Source: an uncultured Bacilli bacterium | Lineage (GTDB): Bacteria; Bacillota_I; Bacilli_A; RF39; UBA660 | Reading direction: 5' to 3' | Assembly: GCA_944332295.1 (NCBI GenBank) | Contig: CALVJR010000009.1 | Coordinates: 1-39,708 of the forward strand | Length of the DNA: 39,708 nt | In this document: piece after piece, positions 209 to 17,456 of the stretch | How the letters are laid out: every line of letters starts with the position of its first letter | Numbering within the stretch: the stretch's first letter is position 1 | Program-made: the position numbers and the translations under genes | The notes under the pieces: model-generated | Seen by the model: only the letters and a program-made list of their open reading frames with translations | What the model was told of the DNA's origin: nothing | Database searches by the model: none

Positions 209-1288
209 ATGAGAGTTATAGTAGCAGCTGGTGGTACTGGAGGACATATTTATCCTGCGTTAGCGATTATTCATAGAATTCAAGAGATGGATAAGAATAG
301 TAAAATTTTATATATAGGAACTACCGATAGAATGGAGAAGGATATTGTCCCAGCAAAAGGAATTGATTTTGTTGGTATTGAAATTCAGGGATTAAATCGA
401 AAAAATATTTTTTCTAATGTTTCTGTTTTACGTAAGTTTTTTAAAGCTATTGATAGATCAAAACAAATAATTCGTGAGTTTAAGCCAGATATTGTGATAG
501 GTGTAGGTGGCTATATTACAGCACCTGTTTTATATGCTGCTCATCAGTTGCATATTAAAACTATGATTCATGAACAAAATTCTATTCCGGGACTTTCTAA
601 TAAATTTTTGGCTCGTTTTGTTGATGTTATTTGTGTTTCTTTACCTGGTAGTCTTTCTTATTTTCCAAAGAATAAGACTGTTTATACAGGAAATCCTAGA
701 AGTGAAGAAATTATAACAATTCCAAAAATTTCTAAGACTAAGCTTGGCTTTGTTACATCTAAAAAATTAGTATTAATTGTCATGGGATCTTTAGGATCTA
801 CTACGATGACTGAAAAGCTAAAAGATGCTATTTGTAAGTTTAAAGATAAAGATTATCAAGTACTAGTAGTTACTGGAAAAGCTTATTATGATTCTTATCA
901 AGATATTCATATTCCTAGTAATGTTGTTCTTCTTCCTTATACTGAGGAGTTAATTCAGATTATGAAAGATGCTGATTTGATGGTATCTCGTGCAGGAGCC
1001 TCTACTATTTCTGAAATTACAGGAATTGGGTTACCTTCGATTTTAGTTCCTTCTCCTTATGTTACTCATAATCATCAATATTTAAATGCAAAAGAGTTGG
1101 AAGATGCTGGTGCTTGTTCTATATTAGAAGAGAAAGATTTTACAGGAGAAGCACTCTGTACTTCTATTACTTCAATTTTATCTGATGATAAGAAGTATCA
1201 GGCTATGAAAAAAGCAAGTGCATCTTTTGGTAAAAAAGATTCTCTTACAAAAATATATCATGAGATAAAGAAGTTAGTTGGTGAGTAG
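209..1288 (+). CDS. murG: UDP-GlcNAc:lipid I GlcNAc transferase MurG
   Basis: MurG adds GlcNAc to undecaprenyl-pyrophosphoryl-MurNAc-pentapeptide (lipid I) on the inner membrane face, giving lipid II. The 359 residues match the usual length and GT28 GT-B fold. Visible are the N-terminal loop GGTGGHIYPALAI, the second Gly-rich loop GVGGYITAPVL, HEQNSIPGLSNK, and the C-terminal donor site RAGASTISEITGIGLPSILV followed by HNHQ. The ATG follows a moderate site (AGGATGTGAAG). It heads the murG-murB-divIB operon; murB starts two bases after its stop. Confidence 0.96.
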   Translation: MRVIVAAGGTGGHIYPALAIIHRIQEMDKNSKILYIGTTDRMEKDIVPAKGIDFVGIEIQGLNRKNIFSNVSVLRKFFKAIDRSKQIIREFKPDIVIGVGGYITAPVLYAAHQLHIKTMIHEQNSIPGLSNKFLARFVDVICVSLPGSLSYFPKNKTVYTGNPRSEEIITIPKISKTKLGFVTSKKLVLIVMGSLGSTTMTEKLKDAICKFKDKDYQVLVVTGKAYYDSYQDIHIPSNVVLLPYTEELIQIMKDADLMVSRAGASTISEITGIGLPSILVPSPYVTHNHQYLNAKELEDAGACSILEEKDFTGEALCTSITSILSDDKKYQAMKKASASFGKKDSLTKIYHEIKKLVGE

Positions 1289-1289
1289 T

Positions 1290-2198
1290 ATGGATGATGT
1301 TTTGAAGGAATTAGAAAAGGATAATCTTGGTAAGATAGAATATGATGTTTCTATTGATAAATATACAACCTATCGGGTTGGTGGTATTGCTAGAGCTATC
1401 TTTTATCCTAAGAATGTGGATAGTTTGATTCAATTTATCAAAAAGGCCAAGTTAAATAATATTAAATATAAATTATTAGGTTTGGGTTCTAATTTGCTTT
1501 TTAGTGATAAAAAGTATGATGGTATTTTGATAAAGTTGGATGAGTTTAATGATATTGAGTTTTTCTCGTCTTCTAAAGTTCGTGTAGGAGCAGGGTACTC
1601 ATTAGTAAAGCTTTCTTTGCAAGCCGCTAGGCGTGGTCTTGCAGGGCTAGAGTTTGCTGCTGGTATTCCTGGTACTGTTGGTGGTGCTGTGTATATGAAT
1701 GCCGGTGCTTATAAAAGTGATATGGGATATGTTGTTCAAGATGTTACTGTATTGACTCCAGATTTAAAGATTATTAAACTTGAAAATAAAGAGATGGATT
1801 TTCATTATCGTAGTTCTTTTTTGCAAACACATCCAGGGTATATTTGTTTAGAAGTGGTGCTACGTTTAGAAAAAGGAGATAAAGCTGCGATAGAAGATGT
1901 TATTCGTGATCGTCGTAAGAGAAGAATGGAGTCACAACCATTAAACTATCCATCTGCAGGTTCTGTTTTTCGAAATCCAGAAGGTATGTTTGCTGGTAAG
2001 ATGATAGAAGATTTAGGATTGAAAGGTTTTTCTATTGGTGGTGCTAAAGTTAGTGAAAAGCATGCTAACTTCATTATTAATTATGATCATGCTACTAGTG
2101 ATGATATTAAAAATTTAATTGATTATGTTAGAGATAAAGTAAAGGCGGAGTATCAGGTTGAATTAAAAGTAGAACAAGAATTTGTTAATTGGGAGTAA
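1290..2198 (+). CDS. murB: UDP-N-acetylenolpyruvoylglucosamine reductase MurB (type II)
   Basis: FAD-dependent, NADPH-using reductase that completes UDP-MurNAc synthesis. Visible: the FAD-binding segment YTTYRVGGIARA, LGLGSNLLFSD, AGIPGTVGGAVYMNAGAY, substrate-contacting YRSSF, the catalytic-serine segment SAGSVFRNP, and GGAKVSEKHANFI. The glutamate of VEQEF near the C-terminus fits the second catalytic residue. At 302 residues without the extra Tyr loop of the E. coli enzyme, it belongs to the Bacillus-type class. The ATG at 1290 is preferred over the upstream TTG (1278) and GTG (1281) because it follows the murG stop directly and GGTGAG (1280-1285) precedes it. Confidence 0.95.
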   Translation: MDDVLKELEKDNLGKIEYDVSIDKYTTYRVGGIARAIFYPKNVDSLIQFIKKAKLNNIKYKLLGLGSNLLFSDKKYDGILIKLDEFNDIEFFSSSKVRVGAGYSLVKLSLQAARRGLAGLEFAAGIPGTVGGAVYMNAGAYKSDMGYVVQDVTVLTPDLKIIKLENKEMDFHYRSSFLQTHPGYICLEVVLRLEKGDKAAIEDVIRDRRKRRMESQPLNYPSAGSVFRNPEGMFAGKMIEDLGLKGFSIGGAKVSEKHANFIINYDHATSDDIKNLIDYVRDKVKAEYQVELKVEQEFVNWE

Positions 2199-2200
2199 TT

Positions 2201-2890
2201 ATGGCTAAAAAAATAGTAAAGAAAACAAAAATTAAGCTGCTGCCTTGTTTAATAGTGCTTCTTTTTTTCGTAGCACTATCTTTTGGTATTTACTATTTTG
2301 TTCAATTACCTATCCAAAATCTTATTGTGGAAGGAACTAACTATTTAAAAGATGATTATGTTTTAGAACTTGCGGGAGTTAGAGATTATCCTAGTTTTTA
2401 TTTGATTTCTACTCGTAATATTGAGGATAAGTTGGAAGAGTCTCCTTATATTCAGAAAGCAGAAGTGAAAAGAGAGTTTTTTCATATTTTAGTTTTGGAT
2501 ATTAAAGAGAGTAAACCATTATTTGTTAATAATACGAATCATACGGTTGTTTTTTCTAATAAAGAGGAAGTTCCAGTTTTAGAAGAAGTTGATTTGTTCC
2601 GTGTTCCGAGACTTATTAATTATGTTCCGGATGATAAATATCGTTCTTTTATTCAAGGAATGGCAGATATTGAGCCTGATATTTTAGGAAAGATTTCTGA
2701 TATTGAGTATCAACCTAATGATTATGATAAAGATCGGTTTTTACTATATATGGATGATGGAAATATGGTTTATCTAACTTTGACTAAGTTTGATATGATT
2801 AACTATTATAATGATGTACTTAGTCAACTTGAAAATAGAAAGGGAATTCTTTATTTAGATAACGGAAATCATTTCCAAATTATGGAGTAG
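2201..2890 (+). CDS. divIB: Cell division protein DivIB/FtsQ
   Basis: Bitopic divisome protein that works with FtsL and DivIC/FtsB outside the membrane to control septal wall synthesis. The 229 residues have a basic cytosolic start (MAKKIVKKTKIK), one membrane segment at about 14-36, then a POTRA domain starting near IQNLIVEGTNYL and including the ESPYIQKAEVKREFF strand-helix pattern, then the FtsQ/DivIB beta domain. The ATG at 2201 has GGGAG (2191-2195) overlapping the end of murB. Its place after murB is the classic dcw order. The next gene begins three bases after its stop. Confidence 0.9.
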   Translation: MAKKIVKKTKIKLLPCLIVLLFFVALSFGIYYFVQLPIQNLIVEGTNYLKDDYVLELAGVRDYPSFYLISTRNIEDKLEESPYIQKAEVKREFFHILVLDIKESKPLFVNNTNHTVVFSNKEEVPVLEEVDLFRVPRLINYVPDDKYRSFIQGMADIEPDILGKISDIEYQPNDYDKDRFLLYMDDGNMVYLTLTKFDMINYYNDVLSQLENRKGILYLDNGNHFQIME

Positions 2891-2893
2891 AAT

Positions 2894-4246
2894 ATGGAGA
2901 AAATATATCGTAGTAGCAAGTATTTGTTTTTGTTTTTATTTTGTTTTGTTGTTTGTACATTTACTTATTCTATTATTACTAGTGATGCTATTTGGAATTT
3001 TGGTTTTAGTTATGCAATTAGTAGAGGAGAGGTACCTTATGTTGATTTTAATATGATTGTACCTCCTTTTTCGCCTTTTGTTTATCTAATTCCTTTTCTT
3101 TTTTCTAATTCTTATGTTGTATATTTACTTTTTCAGTCTATTTTGTTTGTAGTACTTTTTTATTTTTTAGAAAAATTATTTGGTAATAAAGTTTATTTAT
3201 TACTTATTTTGTTAGTTATTCCTATTCCATCTCCTTTGATACCTATTATTTTTCCTGGATATAATTTTTTACTTATCCTTTTATTTACTTTCCTTTTATA
3301 TTTGGAAAAAAGAAGAGCTAATGATTATCTTATTGGAATATTATTAGGGTTATGTATTTTTACAAAACAAAGTGTAGGGATGTTTTTACTTTTGCCATCA
3401 TTCTATTACTTATTTAAAGATAGAAAAAAGTTTTTTAAAAGATGTATTGGTATTTTAATTGTGTGTCTTTTGTTTTTAGGATATTTTTTGTTGTCTGGAT
3501 GTTTGATGGAGTTTTTAGATTATTGTGTTTTGGGAATGTTTGATTTTCAAAGTAAGAACCAAAGTTCTATTTTTACTAATTTTTATTTTTGGTTATGGCT
3601 TTCTTTGGTTTTAGTTTTAATTTATTTTTTAATTAAGAAAAATAATAAATTATTTACTAGTTATTTACTTTGTTTTTCTACTATTTCTTATCCACTTTTT
3701 GATCATTATCATGTTGGATTATTTTTATTTGTTTTTTGTTACTTAGTTTTTTCTAGGATTTCTGATTTTAGATCAAAGTTTACTGTTTTTTGTTTTGTTT
3801 TTTCTAGTATTATTTATTTCACTTTTATGATGGTGTGTCACCAATTTCAAATACCTTATATCACTAGTTTTCCTAATTTTGAAATTCTAAAGATTAGTAA
3901 AGAGACTGAGGAAAATATTGTATCATTATCAAATTATCTAAATCAAAATAAGGATAAAAATATTATATTTTTGACTAATGATGCGTATTTCTTTAAGATT
4001 ATTAATCATTTAGATATTACTTATTTTGATTTACTTAATTATGGAAATCATGGTTATCATGGGACAGAAAAAATACTTAAGAAAATTAAAAAGGAATGTG
4101 ATGCTTATTTTGTTTTATCACCAAGTGAATATCAAAGGGTTGATGTAGATAATCAATTTAATATGGATGTTGTTAATTATATTTTAGAAAACTATCAATT
4201 GATAGACGAGGAGGGAGACTATGAAATATATAAAAAAGTATCATAA
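2894..4246 (+). CDS. GT-C-like polytopic membrane protein, paralog 1 of 5
   Basis: 450 residues with one N-terminal membrane helix, a loop with acidic D31 in SDAIWNFGF, then RGEVPYVDFN followed by PPFSP. This loop pattern (acidic residue, then PYxDFxxxxPP) resembles the first outer loop of GT39/PMT_2-type GT-C glycosyltransferases, which move sugars from polyprenyl-phosphate donors outside the membrane. Roughly ten more hydrophobic segments follow, with YLIGILLGLCIFTKQSVG, GMFDF and FDHYH. About 110 residues of soluble C-terminal domain carry ITYFDLLNYGNHGYHG. GGAG of divIB serves as its ribosome binding site. Sugar-transfer activity is inferred from topology and motif only; a flippase or polymerase role is possible. 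Confidence 0.7.
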   Translation: MEKIYRSSKYLFLFLFCFVVCTFTYSIITSDAIWNFGFSYAISRGEVPYVDFNMIVPPFSPFVYLIPFLFSNSYVVYLLFQSILFVVLFYFLEKLFGNKVYLLLILLVIPIPSPLIPIIFPGYNFLLILLFTFLLYLEKRRANDYLIGILLGLCIFTKQSVGMFLLLPSFYYLFKDRKKFFKRCIGILIVCLLFLGYFLLSGCLMEFLDYCVLGMFDFQSKNQSSIFTNFYFWLWLSLVLVLIYFLIKKNNKLFTSYLLCFSTISYPLFDHYHVGLFLFVFCYLVFSRISDFRSKFTVFCFVFSSIIYFTFMMVCHQFQIPYITSFPNFEILKISKETEENIVSLSNYLNQNKDKNIIFLTNDAYFFKIINHLDITYFDLLNYGNHGYHGTEKILKKIKKECDAYFVLSPSEYQRVDVDNQFNMDVVNYILENYQLIDEEGDYEIYKKVS

Positions 4247-5555
4247 CTATATCTTTTTATTTTTGTTTTTCTTTTGTGTTCTTTCTCTTTTTAGTTTTTA
4301 TAATCATTCTTATGATTCGTTTTGGAATTATAGTTTTAGCTATGCGATTGCTAGAGGAGAGGTACCTTATGTTGATTTTAATACGGTATCTACTCCTTTT
4401 TGTGCATTTTTCTTTTCTCTTTTTTTAATTTTTAGTCATCACTATTTATGGTATATTTTTGGATGGTCTTTGGTTCTTACTTTTACTTTTTATTTATTAT
4501 TTCAAGTGATTCAACATCGAAGTTTTATTGTGTTGTTTGCTTTATTGTTTCCTTTTTTACATACGATTATTCCTACTTATAACTTATTTTGTTTTTGCCT
4601 TTATATTTTGTTACTTTATTTGGAAAAATTTCATAAGAACCATTACCTTATAGGTTTTGTGTTGGGAATTAGTGTTTTAACAAAACAGACGATTGGTGTA
4701 TTTTTTTTATTAGCTAGTGTTATTTATTATGTAAAAGATTTTAAAATATTAGGGAAAAGAATTATGGGATTTATGATTCCGTGTTTGTTATTTTTCATTT
4801 ATTTATTATTTACAAATAGTTTTCTATCATTTCTTGATCTTTGTTTTTTTGGACTTTTTGACTTTTCTAAAAATACTACAGGATTTTCTATTTATTTTTA
4901 TTTATCTATTGTTTTGTTTTTTCTTTTATTTTTCTATGTTTTTAAAAAGGATAGAAGTTTAAGTGCTTATTATACTTTAGCAACATTTTCTTTTGTTATT
5001 CCTTTATTTGATAGTTATCATTTTTTGTTATTCCTTTGTAGTGTATTAGTTTATGTTATGACTAAGATAGATATAAAAAAGAAATATTGCTATTTATTTT
5101 TAGGACTTAATATTTTTCTTTGCTTTATTAATTTTTATTGTTATCAAGGATTTTCTAGTAAAAGATTGGATTTTTTACCTAATTTAGAGTATTATTTGGT
5201 TCAACCAGAACAATATGAAATTCTTTCGGATATGAACCGAGTTTTTCTAAAATATTATGAGAAAGATAATGTTCCTGTTTTATTATCTACCAAAAATAGT
5301 TTTATTTATACGGGTAATGATTTAGATGTTAATTATTTTTTGGTTTTCTTGCATGGAAATTACGGGTATAATGGAGATGAGAAGTTAATTAAAAGAGTAG
5401 AGGAGTCTTCTAATTTATACATTATTAATGAAAATGAGATGGATGAGCTTGGTAGAAATAGGGAGTTTTTGTACGAAGTTTGTGAGTATGTGATTGATCA
5501 TTTTTCATTAGTGGCACGGGAAGGGGATTATTTAATATATGAAGCAAAAGATTAA
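4221..5555 (+). CDS. GT-C-like polytopic membrane protein, paralog 2 of 5
   Basis: 444 residues with the same plan as its neighbour. D32 lies in YDSFWNYSF, followed by RGEVPYVDFN; here the proline pair is reduced to STPF. LTKQTIG, LDLCFFGLFDF and FDSYH follow in the membrane part. The outer C-terminal domain has HGNYGYNG but not the preceding TYFDL, reading NYFLVFL instead, so it is the most divergent of the five in that motif. It overlaps paralog 1 by 26 bp, and GGAGGG inside paralog 1 is its ribosome binding site, which implies translational coupling. It shares a 32-bp exact repeat with paralog 1 (3022-3053 and 4352-4383). Confidence 0.7.
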   Translation: MKYIKKYHNYIFLFLFFFCVLSLFSFYNHSYDSFWNYSFSYAIARGEVPYVDFNTVSTPFCAFFFSLFLIFSHHYLWYIFGWSLVLTFTFYLLFQVIQHRSFIVLFALLFPFLHTIIPTYNLFCFCLYILLLYLEKFHKNHYLIGFVLGISVLTKQTIGVFFLLASVIYYVKDFKILGKRIMGFMIPCLLFFIYLLFTNSFLSFLDLCFFGLFDFSKNTTGFSIYFYLSIVLFFLLFFYVFKKDRSLSAYYTLATFSFVIPLFDSYHFLLFLCSVLVYVMTKIDIKKKYCYLFLGLNIFLCFINFYCYQGFSSKRLDFLPNLEYYLVQPEQYEILSDMNRVFLKYYEKDNVPVLLSTKNSFIYTGNDLDVNYFLVFLHGNYGYNGDEKLIKRVEESSNLYIINENEMDELGRNREFLYEVCEYVIDHFSLVAREGDYLIYEAKD

Positions 5556-6894
5556 GATACAATCTGTTTTTAAATATTTATTCTTATTTTGTTATTTTTT
5601 CTATTGTTTGGTATTGGCATATAATTTGATTCGAGGAGATAGCTATGTTAATTTTGGATTTAGTTATGCTATTACTAGAGGAGAAGTTCCTTATGTTGAT
5701 TTTAATTTAGTTATTCCGCCTCTTGCACCTTGGTTATATTCTGTTTTCTTGTTTTTTAATTCTTCTATCTTAGTTTTTTATTTGGAACAAGCCTTGTTAC
5801 TTACTTTATTTTTTGCGGTTTTATTTCGCTTACTTGGTAATAAGACATGGATTTCTTTGATATTATTATCGATTCCTTTTCCAATTGCGATGGTATCCGT
5901 TATGTTTCCAGGGTATAATTTTTTACTTTTGTTTTTTTTGTTACTCCTTATTTATTGTGAGAGGACTAATAAGAATGATTATTTAATAGGTATTTTGTTA
6001 GGATGTAGTTTTTTAACAAAACAGACTGTAGGGGGATTATTAGCTTTAGCTTCTATTTATTATTTATTTGTTAATTATAAAAAAGTGTTAAAAAGAATTG
6101 TAGGTTTTTTACTTCCAGTTTCTTTATGTTTTATTATTTTACTTCTTCAGGGAAGCTTCTCTTCTTTTTTAGATTTATGTTTTTTTGGACTTTTTGATTT
6201 TGGTCATAGTAATTTACATGTTGATTGGTTTTATTTTATTTGTTTTATTTTAGCTATACTTGTTCTTATTATTCGCATTATTAAAAAGCCTAAAGATATT
6301 TGTAATTATTATGTATTACTTTTTGCTAGTTGTGTTTATCCTATTATTGATTATTATCATGTTTCTTTATTTTTAGCAGGATTTTTTATTTTACTTTTGT
6401 TAGATGGTTCTATTCAGATAGAAATTTATAAACATTGTATTTTCTTTGTCCTTGCTTTAAGTGTTATTTGGTTTGTGATACAAAATATATATTTTGATGA
6501 TTTGAAGATTATTCATTATCCCAATTTTCAGTTTAGCTTAATTTCCGAGAGATATAATAAAGTTGTTCAGAAGTTGGATCAGTATTTAGAGACGTTAGAT
6601 GATGATGTTATTTATTTTTTAAGAGGTAGCGAAAACTATTTTTATAAGATAAAAAGTAATTTAGATATTACCTATTTTGATTTACCTAATTATGGTAATT
6701 ATGGCTATAATGGTACAGCTAAGATTATTTCTAGATTGAAAAAGATAGAGCATGGTTATGTTGTTATAGATACTGATGCTTATGAGAGTAAAGATAGTGC
6801 GCAGCAGTATGTGAAGGAAGCAGTAGAATATATTATGAAGCGTGGAGAGAAAGTAAAGACTATAGGAGTATATGAAGTGTATCATTTTGAGTAA
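5539..6894 (+). CDS. GT-C-like polytopic membrane protein, paralog 3 of 5
   Basis: 451 residues. D34 lies in RGDSYVNFGF, then RGEVPYVDFN and PPLAPW, the fullest match to the PYxDFxxxxPP loop of PMT-type enzymes. LTKQTVG, LDLCFFGLFDF and IDYYH follow, and the outer domain has ITYFDLPNYGNYGYNG. It overlaps paralog 2 by 17 bp; the site GGAAGGGG lies about 11 bases before the ATG. Small minus-strand open frames inside it are composition shadows. Confidence 0.7.
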   Translation: MKQKIKIQSVFKYLFLFCYFFYCLVLAYNLIRGDSYVNFGFSYAITRGEVPYVDFNLVIPPLAPWLYSVFLFFNSSILVFYLEQALLLTLFFAVLFRLLGNKTWISLILLSIPFPIAMVSVMFPGYNFLLLFFLLLLIYCERTNKNDYLIGILLGCSFLTKQTVGGLLALASIYYLFVNYKKVLKRIVGFLLPVSLCFIILLLQGSFSSFLDLCFFGLFDFGHSNLHVDWFYFICFILAILVLIIRIIKKPKDICNYYVLLFASCVYPIIDYYHVSLFLAGFFILLLLDGSIQIEIYKHCIFFVLALSVIWFVIQNIYFDDLKIIHYPNFQFSLISERYNKVVQKLDQYLETLDDDVIYFLRGSENYFYKIKSNLDITYFDLPNYGNYGYNGTAKIISRLKKIEHGYVVIDTDAYESKDSAQQYVKEAVEYIMKRGEKVKTIGVYEVYHFE

Positions 6895-6905
6895 GGGAGT
6901 TAGTT

Positions 6906-8231
6906 ATGATAAAGAAAGTAGTTAAATATATTTTTATCTTTTTAGTAATTTTAATATTTAATCTTCTTTGTAGTCCTATCAATTTAGATGAAATTTGGAA
7001 TTATGGATTTAGTAATAATTTATTTCGAGGACTTATTCCTTATGTAGATTTTAATATGGTAATACCTCCTTTTTATCCATGGCTTATGTCTTTACCATTT
7101 TATTTATTAGGGTCCAATATGTTAATCTTTCATATGACAAATGCTTTGATATTAATTGGATGTTTATTTTTATTAGAGAAGATGTATCAGGATAAGATGT
7201 GGATATTTTTCTTGTTTTTATTTTTTCCGGTAAATGCTACTTTTCCTAGTTATAATTTATTCTTATTTGTCTTATTAGTAGTGTTATACTATGTTGAGAA
7301 AAATTTTGTTTCTAGATATTCTTGGAGTCATTATTTAGTAGGATTTTTGTTAGGAATTACAATTCTTACTAAACATACTGTTGGATTTTGTTTACTTCTT
7401 CCAAGTTTGTATTATTTTAGAGAGTGGAAAGTTCTTTTAAAAAGAGTAATAGGGTGTTTAGTACCAATTTTTATTTTTATTATTTATTTGATTTTTAGTG
7501 ATGGATTTTTTTCATTTTTAAATTTATGTGTTTTAGGATTATTTGATTTTTCTGGTAATAGTGAAATTTTTAATATTTATATGATTTTCTTTCTTATTAT
7601 GGTTTTATTTACAGTTTATTTTATAAAGAAAAATCCTAGGGATATTCTTAATTATTATGTTTTATGTTTCTATAGTATTGTTATTCCTATTGTTGATTTA
7701 TTTCATTTAATTTATGCGTTCTTAGCATTTTTATTATTAGCGTGTTCTCATATTAAGAAAAAGTATGTGAATTATTCTGTTCTTAGTATCGTTTGTGTTA
7801 CTGTTTTAGCATTTATTACTGCTTGGAGTAATGATTTTGATATTCATTATTATCCTAATGATGTTCATCATTTTGAGATGAGGTTTATTAATTATGATCG
7901 ATTGAAGTTTACGAAAAAGATGAATCGCTTTCTTAATAAAAATAAAGATAAAAAAATTATGTTTTTAAGTTCTGATTCTTATTATTTTAAAATTATAAAC
8001 GATGAAGATGTCGGATACTTGGATTTAATCAATCAGGGGAATTTAGGATATCAAGGGAGTGAAGTGCTACTTTCTAAAATAAAAAAAATGAATATAGATA
8101 CTTTATTTCTTGTTAATCCTAATGAGACAGTTCATAATCAGACGGATCCTATAGCTTTAGCATATATTTTAGAGCATGGTAAAAGAATTCAAACTGTTGA
8201 TTTTTATGAAGTTTATGTATTGGAGGAGTAA
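6906..8231 (+). CDS. GT-C-like polytopic membrane protein, paralog 4 of 5
   Basis: 441 residues. D28 lies in LDEIWNYGF, the paralog closest to the DE motif typical of GT-C loops, then RGLIPYVDFN and PPFYPW. The later signature has His for Gln (LTKHTVG), then LNLCVLGLFDF and VDLFH. The outer domain has VGYLDLINQGNLGYQG. It starts 11 bp after paralog 3 behind a GGGAG site. An aromatic, hydrophobic membrane part followed by a Lys-rich soluble domain is shared with the other four. Confidence 0.7.
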   Translation: MIKKVVKYIFIFLVILIFNLLCSPINLDEIWNYGFSNNLFRGLIPYVDFNMVIPPFYPWLMSLPFYLLGSNMLIFHMTNALILIGCLFLLEKMYQDKMWIFFLFLFFPVNATFPSYNLFLFVLLVVLYYVEKNFVSRYSWSHYLVGFLLGITILTKHTVGFCLLLPSLYYFREWKVLLKRVIGCLVPIFIFIIYLIFSDGFFSFLNLCVLGLFDFSGNSEIFNIYMIFFLIMVLFTVYFIKKNPRDILNYYVLCFYSIVIPIVDLFHLIYAFLAFLLLACSHIKKKYVNYSVLSIVCVTVLAFITAWSNDFDIHYYPNDVHHFEMRFINYDRLKFTKKMNRFLNKNKDKKIMFLSSDSYYFKIINDEDVGYLDLINQGNLGYQGSEVLLSKIKKMNIDTLFLVNPNETVHNQTDPIALAYILEHGKRIQTVDFYEVYVLEE

Positions 8232-8233
8232 GT

Positions 8234-9559
8234 ATGAAAAAGTGGATACGATATTTGTTTATTTTTATCTTTGTTTTTTGTATCTATGAGTTTTTTGGAT
8301 TTTCTAATACTTATGGTGATTCACTGAATAACTATGTGTTTAGTCACGCTATTGTGATGGGAGAGATTCCCTATTTAGATTTTAATATTATTACTACACC
8401 TTTATATACTTTTGTTATGTCTATAGGTTTATTTTTCTTTGATAATTACTTTATGTTTATAATTGAACAAAGTTTATTAGTTACTATTATGTTTTATTTT
8501 TTATTTGAAACATATGGTAAGAAAAGTTATTTTGTATTACTTTGTATTTGTTTATTTGGATTTTTAGGAATTAATGCTACTTATAATTTTATGGCATTAT
8601 TTATGTTGGTAATTATTTTATATTTAGAGAAGAAGTATCCTAACAAAGATTATTTGATAGGGTTTGCAATAGGGTGTGCTGTTTTAAGTAAACATACTGT
8701 TGGAGCTTTCTTTATTCTTCCTTCTATTATTTATTATTTTAGGGATATAAAAAAATTATTGCGCAGGGCAGTAGGAGTCATTATTCCTTGTGGTATCTTT
8801 TTTATTTATCTCTTGTGTAATCATGCTTTTTATCGATTTATTGATTTGTGTTTTTTGAGCTTTTTGGATTTTTCTAGTGATAATGCCCATCCTTTTTCTT
8901 TTTATTTTTTTCTTAGTATTTTACTATTGATTATTCAAATAATTATTACTGTTAAAAATAAAAAAGATATACGTAATTACTATTTAATTATGGGATTTTC
9001 TTTTATGATTCCAATATTTGATTTTCACCATTTTGCGATTTATGTTATTTGTTTTGTATTACAAATTTTAGAGTTTATACCTATTAAGAGAGATTATTTT
9101 TACGGTTTAATGATATTTTTATCCGGGTTATATTCGATTATGTTATTTATTAACTATTTTATTTTATTAAAACCTGTTTGGTCTTCTGATATCTTAGGAT
9201 TTCAATATACATTATGTGCAAGAGAAGAGTATCGAGATTCTGTTAAATTTTTTTCTTTTTTTGATCAATATGATCATAAGTTGATTTTATCTCCTAATTC
9301 TATGCAATATAAAGCTAGTAGAGGAGAAGATATTACTTATTTTGATCTTTTGAATAATGGTAATCATGGTTATCAAGGTAGTCAAAAAATGATAGAAGCG
9401 ATAGAAGATATGCATAATGTTTATATTATTATTAATGTTGTTTTTTATTATGATGATAATAAATATAATCAATTTGATAAAACTATTGTGAGACATGTTA
9501 TGAATTCTTATGAAAAAGTCGATTCTTGGAGAGATTTTGATGTTTATTATAAGAATTAA
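8234..9559 (+). CDS. GT-C-like polytopic membrane protein, paralog 5 of 5
   Basis: 441 residues. D29 lies in YGDSLNNYVF, then MGEIPYLDFN; the Arg of the RGExPY motif seen in paralogs 1-3 is Met here, and the proline pair is TTPL. It keeps LSKHTVG, a divergent LSFLDF, FDFHH and ITYFDLLNNGNHGYQG. Paralogs 4 and 5 share the KH variant, suggesting a subgroup. It starts two bases after paralog 4 behind GGAGGAG and is the last gene of the operon, followed within 7 bp by a strong terminator. Confidence 0.7.
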   Translation: MKKWIRYLFIFIFVFCIYEFFGFSNTYGDSLNNYVFSHAIVMGEIPYLDFNIITTPLYTFVMSIGLFFFDNYFMFIIEQSLLVTIMFYFLFETYGKKSYFVLLCICLFGFLGINATYNFMALFMLVIILYLEKKYPNKDYLIGFAIGCAVLSKHTVGAFFILPSIIYYFRDIKKLLRRAVGVIIPCGIFFIYLLCNHAFYRFIDLCFLSFLDFSSDNAHPFSFYFFLSILLLIIQIIITVKNKKDIRNYYLIMGFSFMIPIFDFHHFAIYVICFVLQILEFIPIKRDYFYGLMIFLSGLYSIMLFINYFILLKPVWSSDILGFQYTLCAREEYRDSVKFFSFFDQYDHKLILSPNSMQYKASRGEDITYFDLLNNGNHGYQGSQKMIEAIEDMHNVYIIINVVFYYDDNKYNQFDKTIVRHVMNSYEKVDSWRDFDVYYKN

Positions 9560-9565
9560 ATTGTT

Positions 9566-9590
9566 AAAACGCTTGGCGTTTTTTTTCTTT
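9566..9590 (+). terminator. Terminator of the murG-divIB-GT-C operon
   Basis: AAAACGC (9566-9572), loop TTG, GCGTTTT (9576-9582), then a T-rich run. A perfect 7-bp stem with a strong U-tract. The loop and 3' arm also form the -35 of the ftsA promoter. Confidence 0.85.
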
Positions 9591-9601
9591 TATAGTATAA
9601 T
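9573..9601 (+). promoter_or_regulatory. Promoter of ftsA-ftsZ, overlapping the upstream terminator
   Basis: TTGGCG (9573-9578), exactly 17 bp, then TATAAT (9596-9601), 26 bp before the ftsA start. The -35 hexamer is made of the terminator loop plus the first bases of its 3' arm. Confidence 0.7.
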
Positions 9602-9627: not shown

Positions 9628-10863
9628 ATGAGTCAAGTATATACGGGAATTGAATTAGGTACAGATAGTATAAAGATTGTTGTATTAGAAAAACTTCAGA
9701 ATAAATTTCATGTTTTAGCATCTGTTCATAGTCCTAGTGAAGGTATTTCTAAAGGACAGGTTGTAGATATAAAAAAATGTGTTACTAGTGTTCGTACCGC
9801 TTTGAGACGTGTTAATGATATGCTTGGTATTCGGGTGATTCGGGTAATTGCGGTTGTACCAACTACTGGATGTCATTTAGATATTGCGGTTGGTTCTATT
9901 GAAGTAGAAAATTCTTCTTATATTACTGGAGAGGATGTAAGTAGAGTATTGAAAGATGCTTTGGTTGGTAGAATTGATGAAGAACGTGAACTTGTTACTG
10001 CGGTCCCTATTAGTTTTACGGTAGATGAACAAGAGAATATCCAAGATCCTAAGGGAATGGCTGGTGCTATACTTGAGACTAAGGTTGTTGTTGCTACGGT
10101 TCCAAAAGAGCCATTATATAGAATTTTAGAAGTGTTAAAACTTAGTGGGTTAGAAGCGATTGATGTTTGTTTTACTTCTACAGGAGATTATTATGCAGTA
10201 CGTAATCAGAGATTGCAAAAAGAAGTAGGAGCAATCATTGATATTGGTGAAGATACTACAGAGATTTCTATTTTTAATAAAGGAATTCAGATTAAAAATG
10301 CTATTGTTCCTATTGGTAGTCATAATGTAGATAGAGATATTTCTTATATTTTTAAAATTAAAGAAGAGGATTCTAGACGGTTAAAAGAGCAGTTTGCAGT
10401 TAGTATGCAAGCTTATGCTGATACTAATGACTCTGTTAGTGTACCAATAGGAAATGATAAGAAAGAAATTAGTCAGATAGGAATATCTAAAGTTGTAGAA
10501 GCAAGGCTTGAGGAAATATTAAATTTAGCGAAAAAAGAGATAAAAAACTTAACAAATAGAGAAATACGTTATATAATAGTAACAGGTGGCCTTAGTGAGG
10601 TAGCAGGATTTCAGTATTTAGTGGAGTCTGTTTTTGGAATTCATGCTAAGGTGTGTAATATAAGTACAATGGGTCTAAGACATAATCGATATAGTAGTGT
10701 CATTGGTGCAGTACAGTATTTTGATGATAAAATGTCTTTACGCGGGAAAAATGTCAGTATGATATCAGATAGTGATGTTCAGACATTGATGTCTCCTGAT
10801 GATAAGACCGTCAATAGTGATAATATTATTAGTAAAGTCTTTGGACATTTTTTTGATAATTAA
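9628..10863 (+). CDS. ftsA: Cell division protein FtsA
   Basis: Actin-like ATPase that anchors FtsZ filaments to the membrane and recruits later division proteins. The 411 residues show the phosphate-1 loop IELGTDSIK, the SHS2/1C domain region (about 80-170), phosphate-2 IIDIGEDTTEISIF, the adenosine motif IIVTGGLSEVAGF, and a C-terminal amphipathic helix (NIISKVFGHFF) that fits membrane targeting. AAGGAG lies at a good distance from the ATG. It is directly followed by ftsZ. Confidence 0.95.
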   Translation: MSQVYTGIELGTDSIKIVVLEKLQNKFHVLASVHSPSEGISKGQVVDIKKCVTSVRTALRRVNDMLGIRVIRVIAVVPTTGCHLDIAVGSIEVENSSYITGEDVSRVLKDALVGRIDEERELVTAVPISFTVDEQENIQDPKGMAGAILETKVVVATVPKEPLYRILEVLKLSGLEAIDVCFTSTGDYYAVRNQRLQKEVGAIIDIGEDTTEISIFNKGIQIKNAIVPIGSHNVDRDISYIFKIKEEDSRRLKEQFAVSMQAYADTNDSVSVPIGNDKKEISQIGISKVVEARLEEILNLAKKEIKNLTNREIRYIIVTGGLSEVAGFQYLVESVFGIHAKVCNISTMGLRHNRYSSVIGAVQYFDDKMSLRGKNVSMISDSDVQTLMSPDDKTVNSDNIISKVFGHFFDN

Positions 10864-12237: not shown

Positions 12238-12261
12238 AAGAGTTGAATAAATCAACTCTTT
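12237..12261. terminator. Bidirectional terminator between the small gene and arginase
   Basis: AAAGAGTTGA (12237-12246), loop ATAAA, TCAACTCTTT (12252-12261): a 10-bp perfect stem flanked by T-rich DNA on both strands. It overlaps the stop codons of both convergent genes. Confidence 0.85.
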
Positions 12262-13162
12262 AATATTTTTTTTCTACTATTTTTCCTTTATTTTCTGCTG
12301 CTCTTATAATTTGTGCTAGTAGATTGATAGCAATTTGTTCTGTTTTTCTATTTACATCTCGTAACGGATTAAATTCTACTAGGTCATAGGATACTACTTG
12401 ATTTAAATGTTTCATAATTAATTCATTTATTTTCATAGCTTCTTCTTCTGAAATTCCGTCAAATTCTGGGATAGATACACCAGGTGCTATTTCAGGATCT
12501 ATTAAATCTAAATCATAGCTAATATGTATTCCTGATGTTTTTTCTCCAGCAATTTTAAAAGCTTCTTCTACTACTTGTTCTATTCCTTTTTGTTTGATGT
12601 CTTCAGTTGTAAATACTGTAATACCAGAATATCTGATATTATCTTTTTCCCAATCATCAATACTTCTGGCACCAACGACTACTGCTTTTGTTGGTTGAAT
12701 TGTTTTTCCATCATAGAAGTATCTTAATTCGTGATTTTTGTAGCCTGTGATTGCTGCTAGAGGAAGACCATGAATATTTCCACTAACGGTTGTATCAAAG
12801 GTATTATAATCAGTATGAGCATCAAACCAGATAATTCCTATATTTTCATGTACTTTAGCGCTAGCTAGGGCACTAGCAACAGCAATAGAATGATCTCCAC
12901 CAATGGTAATAGGAAAGTATCCGTCTTTTACTTTTTCTAATATTTTGTTATATAATTCTGTGTTAAATTTATCTATTTCGTATTCATTTTTTCTTCTATC
13001 AGATAAATTTCTACTTTTTATAATCTCTTCATTTTGAACAAGAGTAAAAGTTTCTCCTTTATAAAAACCTTTTAAATCATTTAATAATTGTATGGGACCT
13101 AGATGTGCTCCATCGATGTGAACACCTAAATCACTACCTGCTCCTGCAATAAATGTCTTCAT
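12260..13162 (-). CDS. rocF: Arginase (ureohydrolase family)
   Basis: Di-manganese hydrolase; the closest match is arginase, L-arginine to ornithine and urea. The 300 residues show GGDHSIAVASA, the metal and substrate site DAHTDYNT followed by SGNIHGLPLA (Asn and Ser positions that hold the arginine carboxylate in arginases), and the second metal site SYDLDLIDPEIAPGVSIP, then VEFNPLRD. The ATG at 13162 is preferred over an in-frame GTG nine bases upstream because AAGAGGG then has proper spacing. Agmatinase and formimidoylglutamase are less likely because of SGNxHGxP. It is the only minus-strand gene among wall and division genes. Confidence 0.85.
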   Translation of the reverse strand: MKTFIAGAGSDLGVHIDGAHLGPIQLLNDLKGFYKGETFTLVQNEEIIKSRNLSDRRKNEYEIDKFNTELYNKILEKVKDGYFPITIGGDHSIAVASALASAKVHENIGIIWFDAHTDYNTFDTTVSGNIHGLPLAAITGYKNHELRYFYDGKTIQPTKAVVVGARSIDDWEKDNIRYSGITVFTTEDIKQKGIEQVVEEAFKIAGEKTSGIHISYDLDLIDPEIAPGVSIPEFDGISEEEAMKINELIMKHLNQVVSYDLVEFNPLRDVNRKTEQIAINLLAQIIRAAENKGKIVEKKY

Positions 13163-13179
13163 AAATTTCACCCTCTTAC

Positions 13180-14776: not shown

Positions 14777-16024
14777 ATGAAAAAGATGAGTATTAAAAGA
14801 GGATACCGGTTGACTAAAAGAGAGATTGTTATATTAATTTTACTGGGTGCTGCAATTCTTTGTTTTATTTTGGTACTGTTATATTATTATGTGCAAGTAT
14901 ATTCTTATTATTCTAGGGTTTTACCTAATACTTACTTAGGAAATTATTTGATTTCTGATGTTAGTTTTGAGGATTTAGAATCTGTGATTTCTTCTTTTGA
15001 AGATAAGGTGTTAGATGAGAAAAATACTTTTCGATGTAATAATAAAGAGTATTTGTATTCTTATAGAGAGTTAGGAGTTGAAATTGATAAAGATAAAATT
15101 ATAGATTCTATTACTAATTATCAAACGGCTTTAGATTGGCAAGAGTTAAATCGTATTTTAGATGATAATACAAGGTATACTTTTCATTATTTTTTTGTTT
15201 ATGATAAAGAAAAGATAAGAGAGTTTTTAAATACCTTAAAATCTGTTGTTGATGTTACTAGGGTAGATGGTCATTTTTCTATCGGGGAAGATCATAGTTT
15301 ACAATATGTTTCTGGTGTTAACGGGTATTCTTTGAATATTGATTCTTCTTTAGATTCTATACTTTCTTATTTAGATGGGAAAAATCAGAAGGGTTTTGTA
15401 GAACTTGATGGTACTATTGATCAGGCTTCTTCTAATGAATCATATCAATCTATTGATACTAAGGTTTCCTCTTTTACAACAAAGTTTAATCCTTATATTT
15501 CTCGGGCTAATAATTTACGAGTTGGTTTAGATTATATTGATGGAGTTATTGTTCCACCAGGAGAAGTTTTTTCTTTTTATAAGTATGCTGGACCATATAA
15601 TAAAAAAGGATATGTTTTTTATTATGAATATGTAGGTAATGGAGTATGTCAGATTGCTACTACAGTTTATAATGCTGCCTTGTTAGGGGGATTAGAGATT
15701 GTTAAACGTTCTCCTCATTCTGCTAAATCTCCTTATGTTCCTGGAGGACTAGATGCTACTGTTGCTAGTTCTTCTAATGGTTGGAATATTGATTTTCAGT
15801 TTAAAAATACTTATTCTTATCCTATTTATATTTCTGCTTATGCAGTAGGTGGAGAAGCACATGTTGATTTTTGGTCGAATAAGGATGCTCTTGGTGGTAA
15901 GACTTATTCTACTGAATCTGTTCAGATAGGAAAGAGAGGATATACTACTTATTTACATACTTATCAAAATGGGGTCTGGATAAGACGAGATAAAATAGCA
16001 ACTACTTGGTATAGTAAAGATTAA
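14777..16024 (+). CDS. VanW family protein, membrane-anchored
   Basis: 415 residues: one membrane helix at about 19-43, an outer region (about 60-215) fitting the peptidoglycan-binding-like domain often found before VanW, then the VanW domain (about 235-370) with VNGVCQIATT-type core read here as GNGVCQIATTVYNAALL, EIVKRSPHS, YVPGGLDATV and FKNTYSYPIYI. A short C-terminal part follows. VanW was named from some vancomycin gene clusters, but the domain is common in Bacillota without resistance and has no settled activity. A GTGAT-type site precedes the ATG. Its neighbours are wall-synthesis genes. Confidence 0.88.
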   Translation: MKKMSIKRGYRLTKREIVILILLGAAILCFILVLLYYYVQVYSYYSRVLPNTYLGNYLISDVSFEDLESVISSFEDKVLDEKNTFRCNNKEYLYSYRELGVEIDKDKIIDSITNYQTALDWQELNRILDDNTRYTFHYFFVYDKEKIREFLNTLKSVVDVTRVDGHFSIGEDHSLQYVSGVNGYSLNIDSSLDSILSYLDGKNQKGFVELDGTIDQASSNESYQSIDTKVSSFTTKFNPYISRANNLRVGLDYIDGVIVPPGEVFSFYKYAGPYNKKGYVFYYEYVGNGVCQIATTVYNAALLGGLEIVKRSPHSAKSPYVPGGLDATVASSSNGWNIDFQFKNTYSYPIYISAYAVGGEAHVDFWSNKDALGGKTYSTESVQIGKRGYTTYLHTYQNGVWIRRDKIATTWYSKD

Positions 16025-16046
16025 ATATTTATTTAGGATGGTGATT

Positions 16047-16946
16047 ATGAAGAAGCTAGATAATAATATATATTCTTGTGATATTTCTGATATTGATAGC
16101 TTATTTCAAGAACGGGATTGTGATTGTAATAAAGGTGATTTTGGTAAAGCAGGTATTTATGGCGGGAGTGTAGAGTATTCTGGCGCTTTAAAGCTTGCTT
16201 CTTTATCATTAGCAGCTTTAAGAAGTGGAAGTGGTATTAGTAAGATACTTGTTAGTGAGAGCTTGCTACCTTTATTAGGGCCTAATATCTTGGAACAAAC
16301 GTTAGTAGTTTTACCAGATTATGAGGATTGTCAATTTAGAGAGAAGTTATATGATTCTATTTCTGATTTAAATTCTTTGGCTTTTGGTATGGGACTTGGA
16401 AATGATTGTCATTTGGTGGAAGTTTTAGAGTTTCTTATTCAAAATTATACTGGTAATTTAATTATTGATGCGGACGGGTTAAATACTTTGTCTAAAATGA
16501 AGTTAGATATTTTAAAGGATAAAAAATGTAATATTATTCTTACTCCTCATGTAAAAGAGTTTTCTAGACTTTGTGGTAGAAAGGTAGAGGAGATAAAAGA
16601 TGATTCTTTGCATTTTGTTTTAAAGTTTGCTAAAGAATATCAAGTGATAGTATTATTAAAGGGTCATACTACTACTATTTCTGATGGATGGAATACTTAT
16701 TTTGTTACTACTGGATGTTCTGGTATGGCAACTGCTGGTAGTGGAGATGTATTATCTGGTATTCTTGCGGGTATGCTTGCTTATCATAATTTTACTATCA
16801 AAACGATTGCTGCTTCCGTATTTCTACATGGTATTGCAGGATGTTTGGCAGAAGAGAGAAATACAGATATTTCTATGATAGCGAGTGATACAATTTCTTA
16901 TATAGGTGAAGCAATTAAAATGATTCGGAATCATAAAACTAAATAG
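16047..16946 (+). CDS. nnrD: ADP-dependent NAD(P)H-hydrate dehydratase
   Basis: Repairs damaged, hydrated NAD(P)H at the expense of ADP. The 299 residues are the dehydratase (CARKD, ribokinase-like) domain alone; the epimerase domain fused in many bacteria is absent. Visible: GDFGKAGIYGGSVEYSGAL, IIDADGLNTL, ILTPHVKEFSRL, VLLKGHTT, and the nucleotide and catalytic loop CSGMATAGSGDVLSGILAG. The ATG at 16047 is preferred over 16038 because GGTGAT then stands at a normal distance. It follows the VanW gene by 22 bp and is probably cotranscribed. Confidence 0.92.
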   Translation: MKKLDNNIYSCDISDIDSLFQERDCDCNKGDFGKAGIYGGSVEYSGALKLASLSLAALRSGSGISKILVSESLLPLLGPNILEQTLVVLPDYEDCQFREKLYDSISDLNSLAFGMGLGNDCHLVEVLEFLIQNYTGNLIIDADGLNTLSKMKLDILKDKKCNIILTPHVKEFSRLCGRKVEEIKDDSLHFVLKFAKEYQVIVLLKGHTTTISDGWNTYFVTTGCSGMATAGSGDVLSGILAGMLAYHNFTIKTIAASVFLHGIAGCLAEERNTDISMIASDTISYIGEAIKMIRNHKTK

Positions 16947-16988
16947 CTTTTCTGTTCCTTTTATGATATCATTATGTAGGGTGATAAC

Positions 16989-17456
16989 GTGATAAAAAAA
17001 GTTTTAAAGGGCATTTTAGTTATTGTGTGTATGATTACTATCTTTTATTTTTCATCTGATAATGGAGAGGAATCTAGTTATAAAAGTGATAGTGTTATTT
17101 TAAGTGTATCTTCTTTTTTTGGCGTTGATCATTTATCGAAACAGGAAAGAAATGATTTGATTGATACCTTTGTAGTGCCTGTTAGAAAAACAGCACACTT
17201 TACTATTTATTTTATATTAGGTATTACTTTTATTAGTTTTTTGAGAGAATTTTCTATTCCTGTTAAAAAGTTATTATTACTTTCTATTTTTTTAGCATTT
17301 CTTTATGCTTGTAGTGATGAGATACATCAGTTATTTATTTCAGGACGTACTGGTAAAGTTTTAGATGTTTTTATTGATACTTTAGGTGCTAGTTCGGGAG
17401 TTTTTCTTTACTATTTATTATTTCGAAAAAAATTAAAGGAGGTGCGATATGAGTAA
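16989..17456 (+). CDS. VanZ family membrane protein
   Basis: 155 residues with about four membrane segments. The VanZ pattern is present: FYFSSDNGEES after the first helix, RKTAHFTIYFILG, SDEIHQLFISGRTGKVLDV and DTLGASSG. VanZ members can give low teicoplanin resistance in enterococci, but most are housekeeping envelope proteins of unknown activity. Start is GTG at 16989 with GGGTGAT ahead; TATGAT (16962-16967) may be its -10. It overlaps the flippase gene by 8 bp, so the two are likely coupled. Confidence 0.88.
   Translation: MIKKVLKGILVIVCMITIFYFSSDNGEESSYKSDSVILSVSSFFGVDHLSKQERNDLIDTFVVPVRKTAHFTIYFILGITFISFLREFSIPVKKLLLLSIFLAFLYACSDEIHQLFISGRTGKVLDVFIDTLGASSGVFLYYLLFRKKLKEVRYE

Follow-up and report, generated by a model that had tools for sequence, protein, structure and literature searches.

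What are five consecutive genes for membrane proteins doing between divIB and ftsA, in the middle of a cell division gene cluster? The question is raised by the window analyzed here, a stretch of 39,708 nucleotides from an uncultured Bacilli bacterium (RF39, UBA660; assembly GCA_944332295.1, contig CALVJR010000009.1), in which an earlier note had pointed out the five genes and proposed that their products are glycosyltransferases of the GT-C structural type. A predicted structure confirms that these proteins have the fold of GT-C class A (GT-CA) and form a little-recognised family, predicted to have some 11 membrane helices and a C-terminal domain outside the cytoplasm. The GT-C island that they constitute within the division cluster, an unusual place, is real and lineage-wide in uncultured gut bacteria. 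Its five genes are the following:

2894..4246, + strand: GT-C copy 1, 450 amino acids (aa), with D31, PYVDFN at 48, TKQSVG at 157, PLFDHYH at 267 and GNHGYHG at 384
4221..5555, + strand: GT-C copy 2, 444 aa, overlapping copy 1 by 26 bp; a rarer orthologous group
5539..6894, + strand: GT-C copy 3, 451 aa, overlapping copy 2 by 17 bp; above the PMT_2 cut-off in one search
6906..8231, + strand: GT-C copy 4, 441 aa, with a D28-E29 motif; the most widespread group, modelled here and ArnT-like over residues 1-440
8234..9559, + strand: GT-C copy 5, 441 aa

The five open reading frames (ORFs) are intact and span, on one strand (+), the gap between divIB and ftsA (2894-9559, hereafter the slot), with successive spacings of -26, -17, +11 and +2 bp, 3 bp separating divIB from copy 1 and 68 bp copy 5 from ftsA; the overlaps and gaps of the tandem given in the earlier note are exact. 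All ten pairs of copies are homologous over nearly their full length (31-41% identity, E 1e-50 to 1e-98). The three motifs already recognised, an acidic residue (D) after helix 1, PY(V/L)DFN and (T/S)K(Q/H)(S/T)(V/I)G, are found in the five copies, which also share two motifs absent from that first list, P..D..H and GNxGYxG. The G + C content of the block (0.23-0.26, versus 0.28-0.36 in its flanks) fits membrane proteins rich in Phe, Leu and Ile.

The assignment to GT-C relies on an AlphaFold model of copy 4, built from a 150-row alignment and of high confidence (predicted local distance difference test, pLDDT, 96.8; predicted template modelling score, pTM, 0.94). A GT-CA core comprises at least seven transmembrane (TM) helices, the first two of which are separated by a pair of juxtamembrane helices, and such a core is present in the model, where TM1 (2-22) is followed by first-loop helices at 27-40 and 56-62 and then by about ten TM helices. 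Foldseek retrieved ArnT (E 9.5e-6), AftA (1.7e-4) and PglB (2.9e-3), its three matches at E <= 0.001 being ArnT twice and AftA. Re-alignment with VIA also placed first ArnT, the undecaprenyl-P-L-Ara4N:lipid A transferase (GT83), which is the best full-length fold match and includes the outer C-terminal domain (Z 16.9, 401 of 441 residues, range 1-440, 4.8 Å). The 50 VIA matches listed are all GT-C enzymes, plus a GT-C-like subunit of the glycosylphosphatidylinositol (GPI) transamidase; besides ArnT they comprise ALG3/6/9/12, Pmt, OST/PglB/AglB, AftA/B/D, Emb, PimE and DPY19. A VIA Z-score alone calls for caution with a helical protein, but here the matches are all of one type and the whole model is aligned. 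The viral structure library returned no match at E <= 0.001.

Matches at the sequence level are weak. None of the five copies has a credible hmmscan match in Pfam or NCBIfam, and a sequence search of the PDB with the window proteins found no relevant match, none to PglB or oligosaccharyltransferase (OST) chains. The resemblance to PMT_2/GT39 enzymes proposed earlier is nevertheless real, if weak at this level: in a PMT_2 (PF13231) profile search of the genomes copy 3 reaches 28.8 bits for a curated cut-off of 26.1, PMT_2 matches 11 of 55 relatives (E up to 0.1, best 7.8e-7) and GT87 five of them, and a profile comparison with hhalign aligns 187 columns with a PMT_2 protein having a PYRD motif (E 0.0047). 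Membership of the ArnT family (GT83) by sequence similarity was rejected, the hhalign match to Escherichia coli ArnT (E 0.48, 31 columns; MurJ control, E 0.61) aligning the TK motif alone, a likeness not significant by itself. ArnT also has the Asp after helix 1, but the window proteins are about 100 residues shorter, and a Bacilli host is not expected to have lipid A. Gram-positive GT-Cs acting on wall polymers often have either a PMT_2 match or no domain match at all (PMC8035078).

Combining the helices of the model with loop charges predicts a cytoplasmic N-terminus, about 11 helices and a C-terminal domain outside. Lys and Arg average 16.6 in the inner loops of the window copies versus 2.6 in the outer loops, and exceed the outer-loop count on the inner side in all 150 sequences. 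The catalytic-type Asp and most conserved polar motifs are on the predicted outer face, the conserved polar residues of that side being D28, D48, N50, N117, K156, D214, N218, D264 and H267. D28 of copy 4 opens the first juxtamembrane helix (27-40), and an Asp occupies this position in 145 of the 150 relatives; catalysis by every GT-CA enzyme requires an Asp there, at the helix tip (PMC12041299). The seeming conservation of columns 134-137 is meaningless, corresponding to an insertion in copy 4 with mostly gaps elsewhere.

The block is a stable property of the lineage. All 15 genomes of the window's genus with an assembled ftsA, including the window's own, carry the protein family, and 14 of them have one to five copies directly upstream of ftsA, the contig stopping within copy 5 in the other (G011). 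Beyond the genus, the scan of 84,980 species genomes provided 71 loci from the best 80 of 171 matches, many of them in metagenome-assembled genomes from gut or rumen, labelled Bacilli, Tenericutes, Firmicutes, Erysipelotrichaceae, Bacillales, simply bacterium and, once, “Clostridia”. Among these loci, selected for the protein family, the 43 with divIB and ftsA assembled in that order all hold one to six copies between them. The distribution is otherwise narrow, with 8 of 395 genomes in a sample of the class and 3 of 392 in a sample of the phylum, all within the bacterial family to which the window belongs. In nine loci read (L055, L057-L060, L064, L065, L070 and L071), ftsA comes immediately after divIB; they belong to other genera of this bacterial family and to two genomes from a different family of the class. 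One of these loci, from a genome of another genus of the bacterial family, has a 1147-aa ORF between murB and divIB (L060 7417-10860).

The block is thus kept at the same site across the genus and in related genera, and with this conserved synteny and no tRNA in the window, a mobile insertion was rejected; absence from relatives together with mobile-element flanks, envisaged in the earlier note as grounds to doubt the proposal, was not what we found. Recent tandem duplication was also rejected. In a tree of 167 family members (quick method, clade supports 78-99), the window copies fall into separate old clades common to several genera, represented in 57 loci for copy 4, 33 for copy 5, 29 for copy 3 and seven each for copies 1 and 2. 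At the catalytic-type site, Asp-Glu is typical of the copy 4 clade (58 of 61), and in the other clades the Asp mostly precedes S, T, P, V, Q or A. These old clades and differing site residues suggest that the copies are probably not interchangeable. Compared with one close species, the copies retain 75-88% amino-acid identity, versus 96% for FtsA, 99% for FtsZ and 93% for MurG; although they diverge faster than their neighbours, the ratio of non-synonymous to synonymous substitutions (dN/dS) of the orthologues, 0.11-0.42, is well below 1 and indicates purifying selection.

In related genomes the slot has also gathered other envelope enzymes. Among them are clear PMT_2 proteins (E 2e-9 and 7e-11), DUF6056, a flavin adenine dinucleotide (FAD) oxidoreductase and, in L107 and L112, a CDP-alcohol phosphatidyltransferase accompanied by a sulfatase-domain protein with five TM helices and LtaS/GacH-type architecture. 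A companion of 470 aa that matches nothing in Pfam is modelled along its entire length as an STT3-like GT-C (pLDDT 86; Z 17.9 to human OST over 426 residues) and may be a small bacterial OST-like enzyme. Another membrane protein family of the slot (474-478 aa), whose members all have the motif HENWRDE following helix 1, is probably also GT-C. Copies of the block's own family occur outside the slot. The positions are:

L084:2423-3925, L096:4720-6216, L050:6108-7361 (- strand), L107:10698-13210, L112:5604-7992 and L130:10708-12246: slot envelope enzymes (PMT_2, DUF6056, CDP-alcohol phosphatidyltransferase with LtaS-like protein, FAD oxidoreductase)
L087:1437-2846, L088:8949-10370, L091:9325-10737, L131:1142-2572 and L140:11183-12634: 470-aa STT3-like companion family
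L129:11953-13386, L130:9282-10703, L139:9274-10707 and L140:8190-9617: HENWRDE family
L097, L099, L135; L111, L134, L141; L085, L090: copies outside the slot, by ezrA, directly before murG or after rmuC

The genes bordering the block are those of a division cluster, and murG, murB, divIB, ftsA and ftsZ are each matched by Pfam:

209..1288, + strand: murG
1278..2198, + strand: murB
2189..2890, + strand: divIB/ftsQ (POTRA_1), the immediate upstream neighbour of copy 1
9566..9582, + strand: short hairpin then T run, a possible weak terminator between copy 5 and ftsA
9573-9601: promoter-like site, overlapping the hairpin, upstream of ftsA
9628..10863, + strand: ftsA, the downstream border of the slot

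Gene order supports the co-expression with murG, murB and divIB put forward in the earlier note; it is less sure toward ftsA, which may begin its own transcript given the hairpin with its T run and the promoter-like site in the 68-bp gap. Transcripts covering murG, murB and divIB may therefore stop after the block in some species. The hairpin recurs in only 3 of 47 related loci, which led to the rejection of a terminator conserved at this site. Further downstream, an arginase-family gene (12260-13171, - strand) separates ftsZ from murE and stays close to that position in many relatives; a VanW-like gene (with PG_binding_4) and a VanZ-like gene follow murE (14777-17456).

Elsewhere in the window's genome, a polysaccharide cluster (approximately G000:C1:84-106 kb) encodes, by sequence inspection, RmlA/B/C/D-like proteins of the dTDP-rhamnose type, with an ABC exporter, GT1, GT2 with DUF2304, DUF2142, a Wzx-like Polysacc_synt protein, which is a candidate flippase, and an O-antigen-ligase-like protein, and the genome has three LCP proteins. 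Family and topology make a GtrB-like GT2 (G000:C1:86094-87083), which ends in two TM helices, a candidate polyprenyl-P-sugar synthase, the GT-A component expected in a multi-component transmembrane glycosylation system; it is unlinked to the block, and 15 of the 16 genus genomes have it. These genes resemble the GacIJKL/SccNM arrangement, in which an exported rhamnan receives its side chains from GT-Cs (PMC8035078, PMC10821137, PMC11754754). The wall-polymer GT-Cs with a PMT_2 match (GacL, CsdD/CsdF, GttB, GtsC and GtlB), compared by description, are likewise GT-Cs of about 8-13 helices with weak PMT_2 similarity and an expected polyprenyl-P-sugar donor (PMC8035078), but in the reviewed examples a GT-A synthase accompanies the GT-C, often within the polymer cluster, while the five copies of the window stand in the division cluster without such a partner. 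AftA, AftB and Emb of mycobacteria, also GT-CA, build wall polysaccharide with lipid-P-sugars (Z 13.0 for AftA, 12.1 for AftB), but are larger and differ in lineage and gene context. STT3/PglB share the class too (Z 13.2 to OST), but the window proteins are closer to ArnT, and it is the co-located companion family that is closer to STT3/PglB.

From these observations we infer glycosylation of a wall or lipid-linked polymer, as the earlier note had proposed, with support from the slot companions, the glycan cluster and the GtrB-like GT2. We consider it probable that the five copies are undecaprenyl-P-sugar-dependent transferases adding different side chains to a wall polysaccharide. Each copy would draw one sugar from an undecaprenyl-phosphate-sugar at the outer leaflet and transfer it to a specific site on an exported envelope polymer, for which the rhamnose-type wall polysaccharide is the most likely candidate. 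The putative catalytic residue is the Asp heading the first juxtamembrane helix, which in copy 4 is D28. As old separate lineages, the copies are probably not alike in the sugar they transfer, the linkage they form or the acceptor position they modify. Catalytic activity, donor, acceptor, distinct specificities and coupling to division are all inferred, and by their location in one operon with murG, murB and divIB the genes would be expressed in parallel with lipid II and septum synthesis. Several observations weigh against this scheme. Neither a donor synthase nor a flippase is encoded in the window's slot, relatives without the block also have the GtrB-like synthase and DUF2304, and a DUF2304/GacJ-type partner was rejected as obligate companion, being in only 5 of 16 genus genomes. 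Nothing links the block directly to the rhamnan, and the copies located away from the division cluster indicate that linkage to divIB is not obligatory.

Those displaced copies, by ezrA, rmuC or before murG, together with a copy number ranging from one to six and the assorted unrelated envelope enzymes of the slot, would also fit the same enzymology with no role of the location in division, the divIB-ftsA gap being a tolerant, well-expressed insertion point that gathers envelope-glycan genes; this is possible but doubtful, as the site is kept throughout the genus and several alternative sites (ezrA, murG) are themselves next to division or wall genes. The copies might instead build or decorate a membrane-anchored lipoglycan or glycolipid replacing teichoic acids. 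The nearest fold, ArnT, modifies a lipid, the slots of L107 and L112 contain LtaS-like genes, and related orders, which may not include the host, are predicted to lack standard wall and lipoteichoic acid synthesis (PMC10868615), but three LCP proteins and the ABC-exported polysaccharide cluster favour a wall-linked polymer and render this alternative unlikely. It is distinctly unlikely that they are PMT-like protein O-glycosyltransferases acting on divisome or secreted proteins during emergence: despite the PMT_2 similarity, the match of Pmt4 and Pmt1-Pmt2 to the core (Z ~15) and the STT3-like companion of some slots, the PMT alignments span residues 1-314 only, and the whole-length match is ArnT.

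A common operon with murG and murB, adjoining divIB, could point to glycosylation of lipid II or nascent septal peptidoglycan. We know of no GT-C that glycosylates either, and the copy number varies freely, unlike that of peptidoglycan genes, which makes this very improbable. Non-catalytic scaffolding of DivIB/FtsQ by degenerate GT-C proteins, suggested by the position and tight spacing to divIB, is scarcely credible in view of the Asp, Lys, His and PYxDFN found in the five copies and nearly all relatives, and of the purifying selection on the orthologues. Beyond side-chain addition to the wall polysaccharide, which we favour, the division cluster could have absorbed non-redundant outer-face glycosyltransferases whose products would mark the septum or the new pole, and a wall glycan carrying lineage-specific sugar decorations, up to five or more of them, would be deposited in time with lipid II and DivIB, giving a glycan pattern coupled to division; we regard this broader scenario as speculative and rather unlikely.

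In Streptococcus mutans, GT-C side chains on the rhamnan, with the glycerol phosphate (GroP) transferase SccH, affect septum placement; decorated rhamnose polysaccharides steer septum placement in streptococci, where the GT-C genes belong to the polysaccharide cluster, whereas here they lie inside the murG-divIB-ftsA-ftsZ cluster (PMC11754754 for streptococci). This study gives a name to a family that general libraries barely recognise and provides a candidate enzyme set for organisms possibly devoid of standard teichoic acids. The several distinct GT-Cs kept in their division cluster represent a testable physical link between wall-glycan decoration and cell division.

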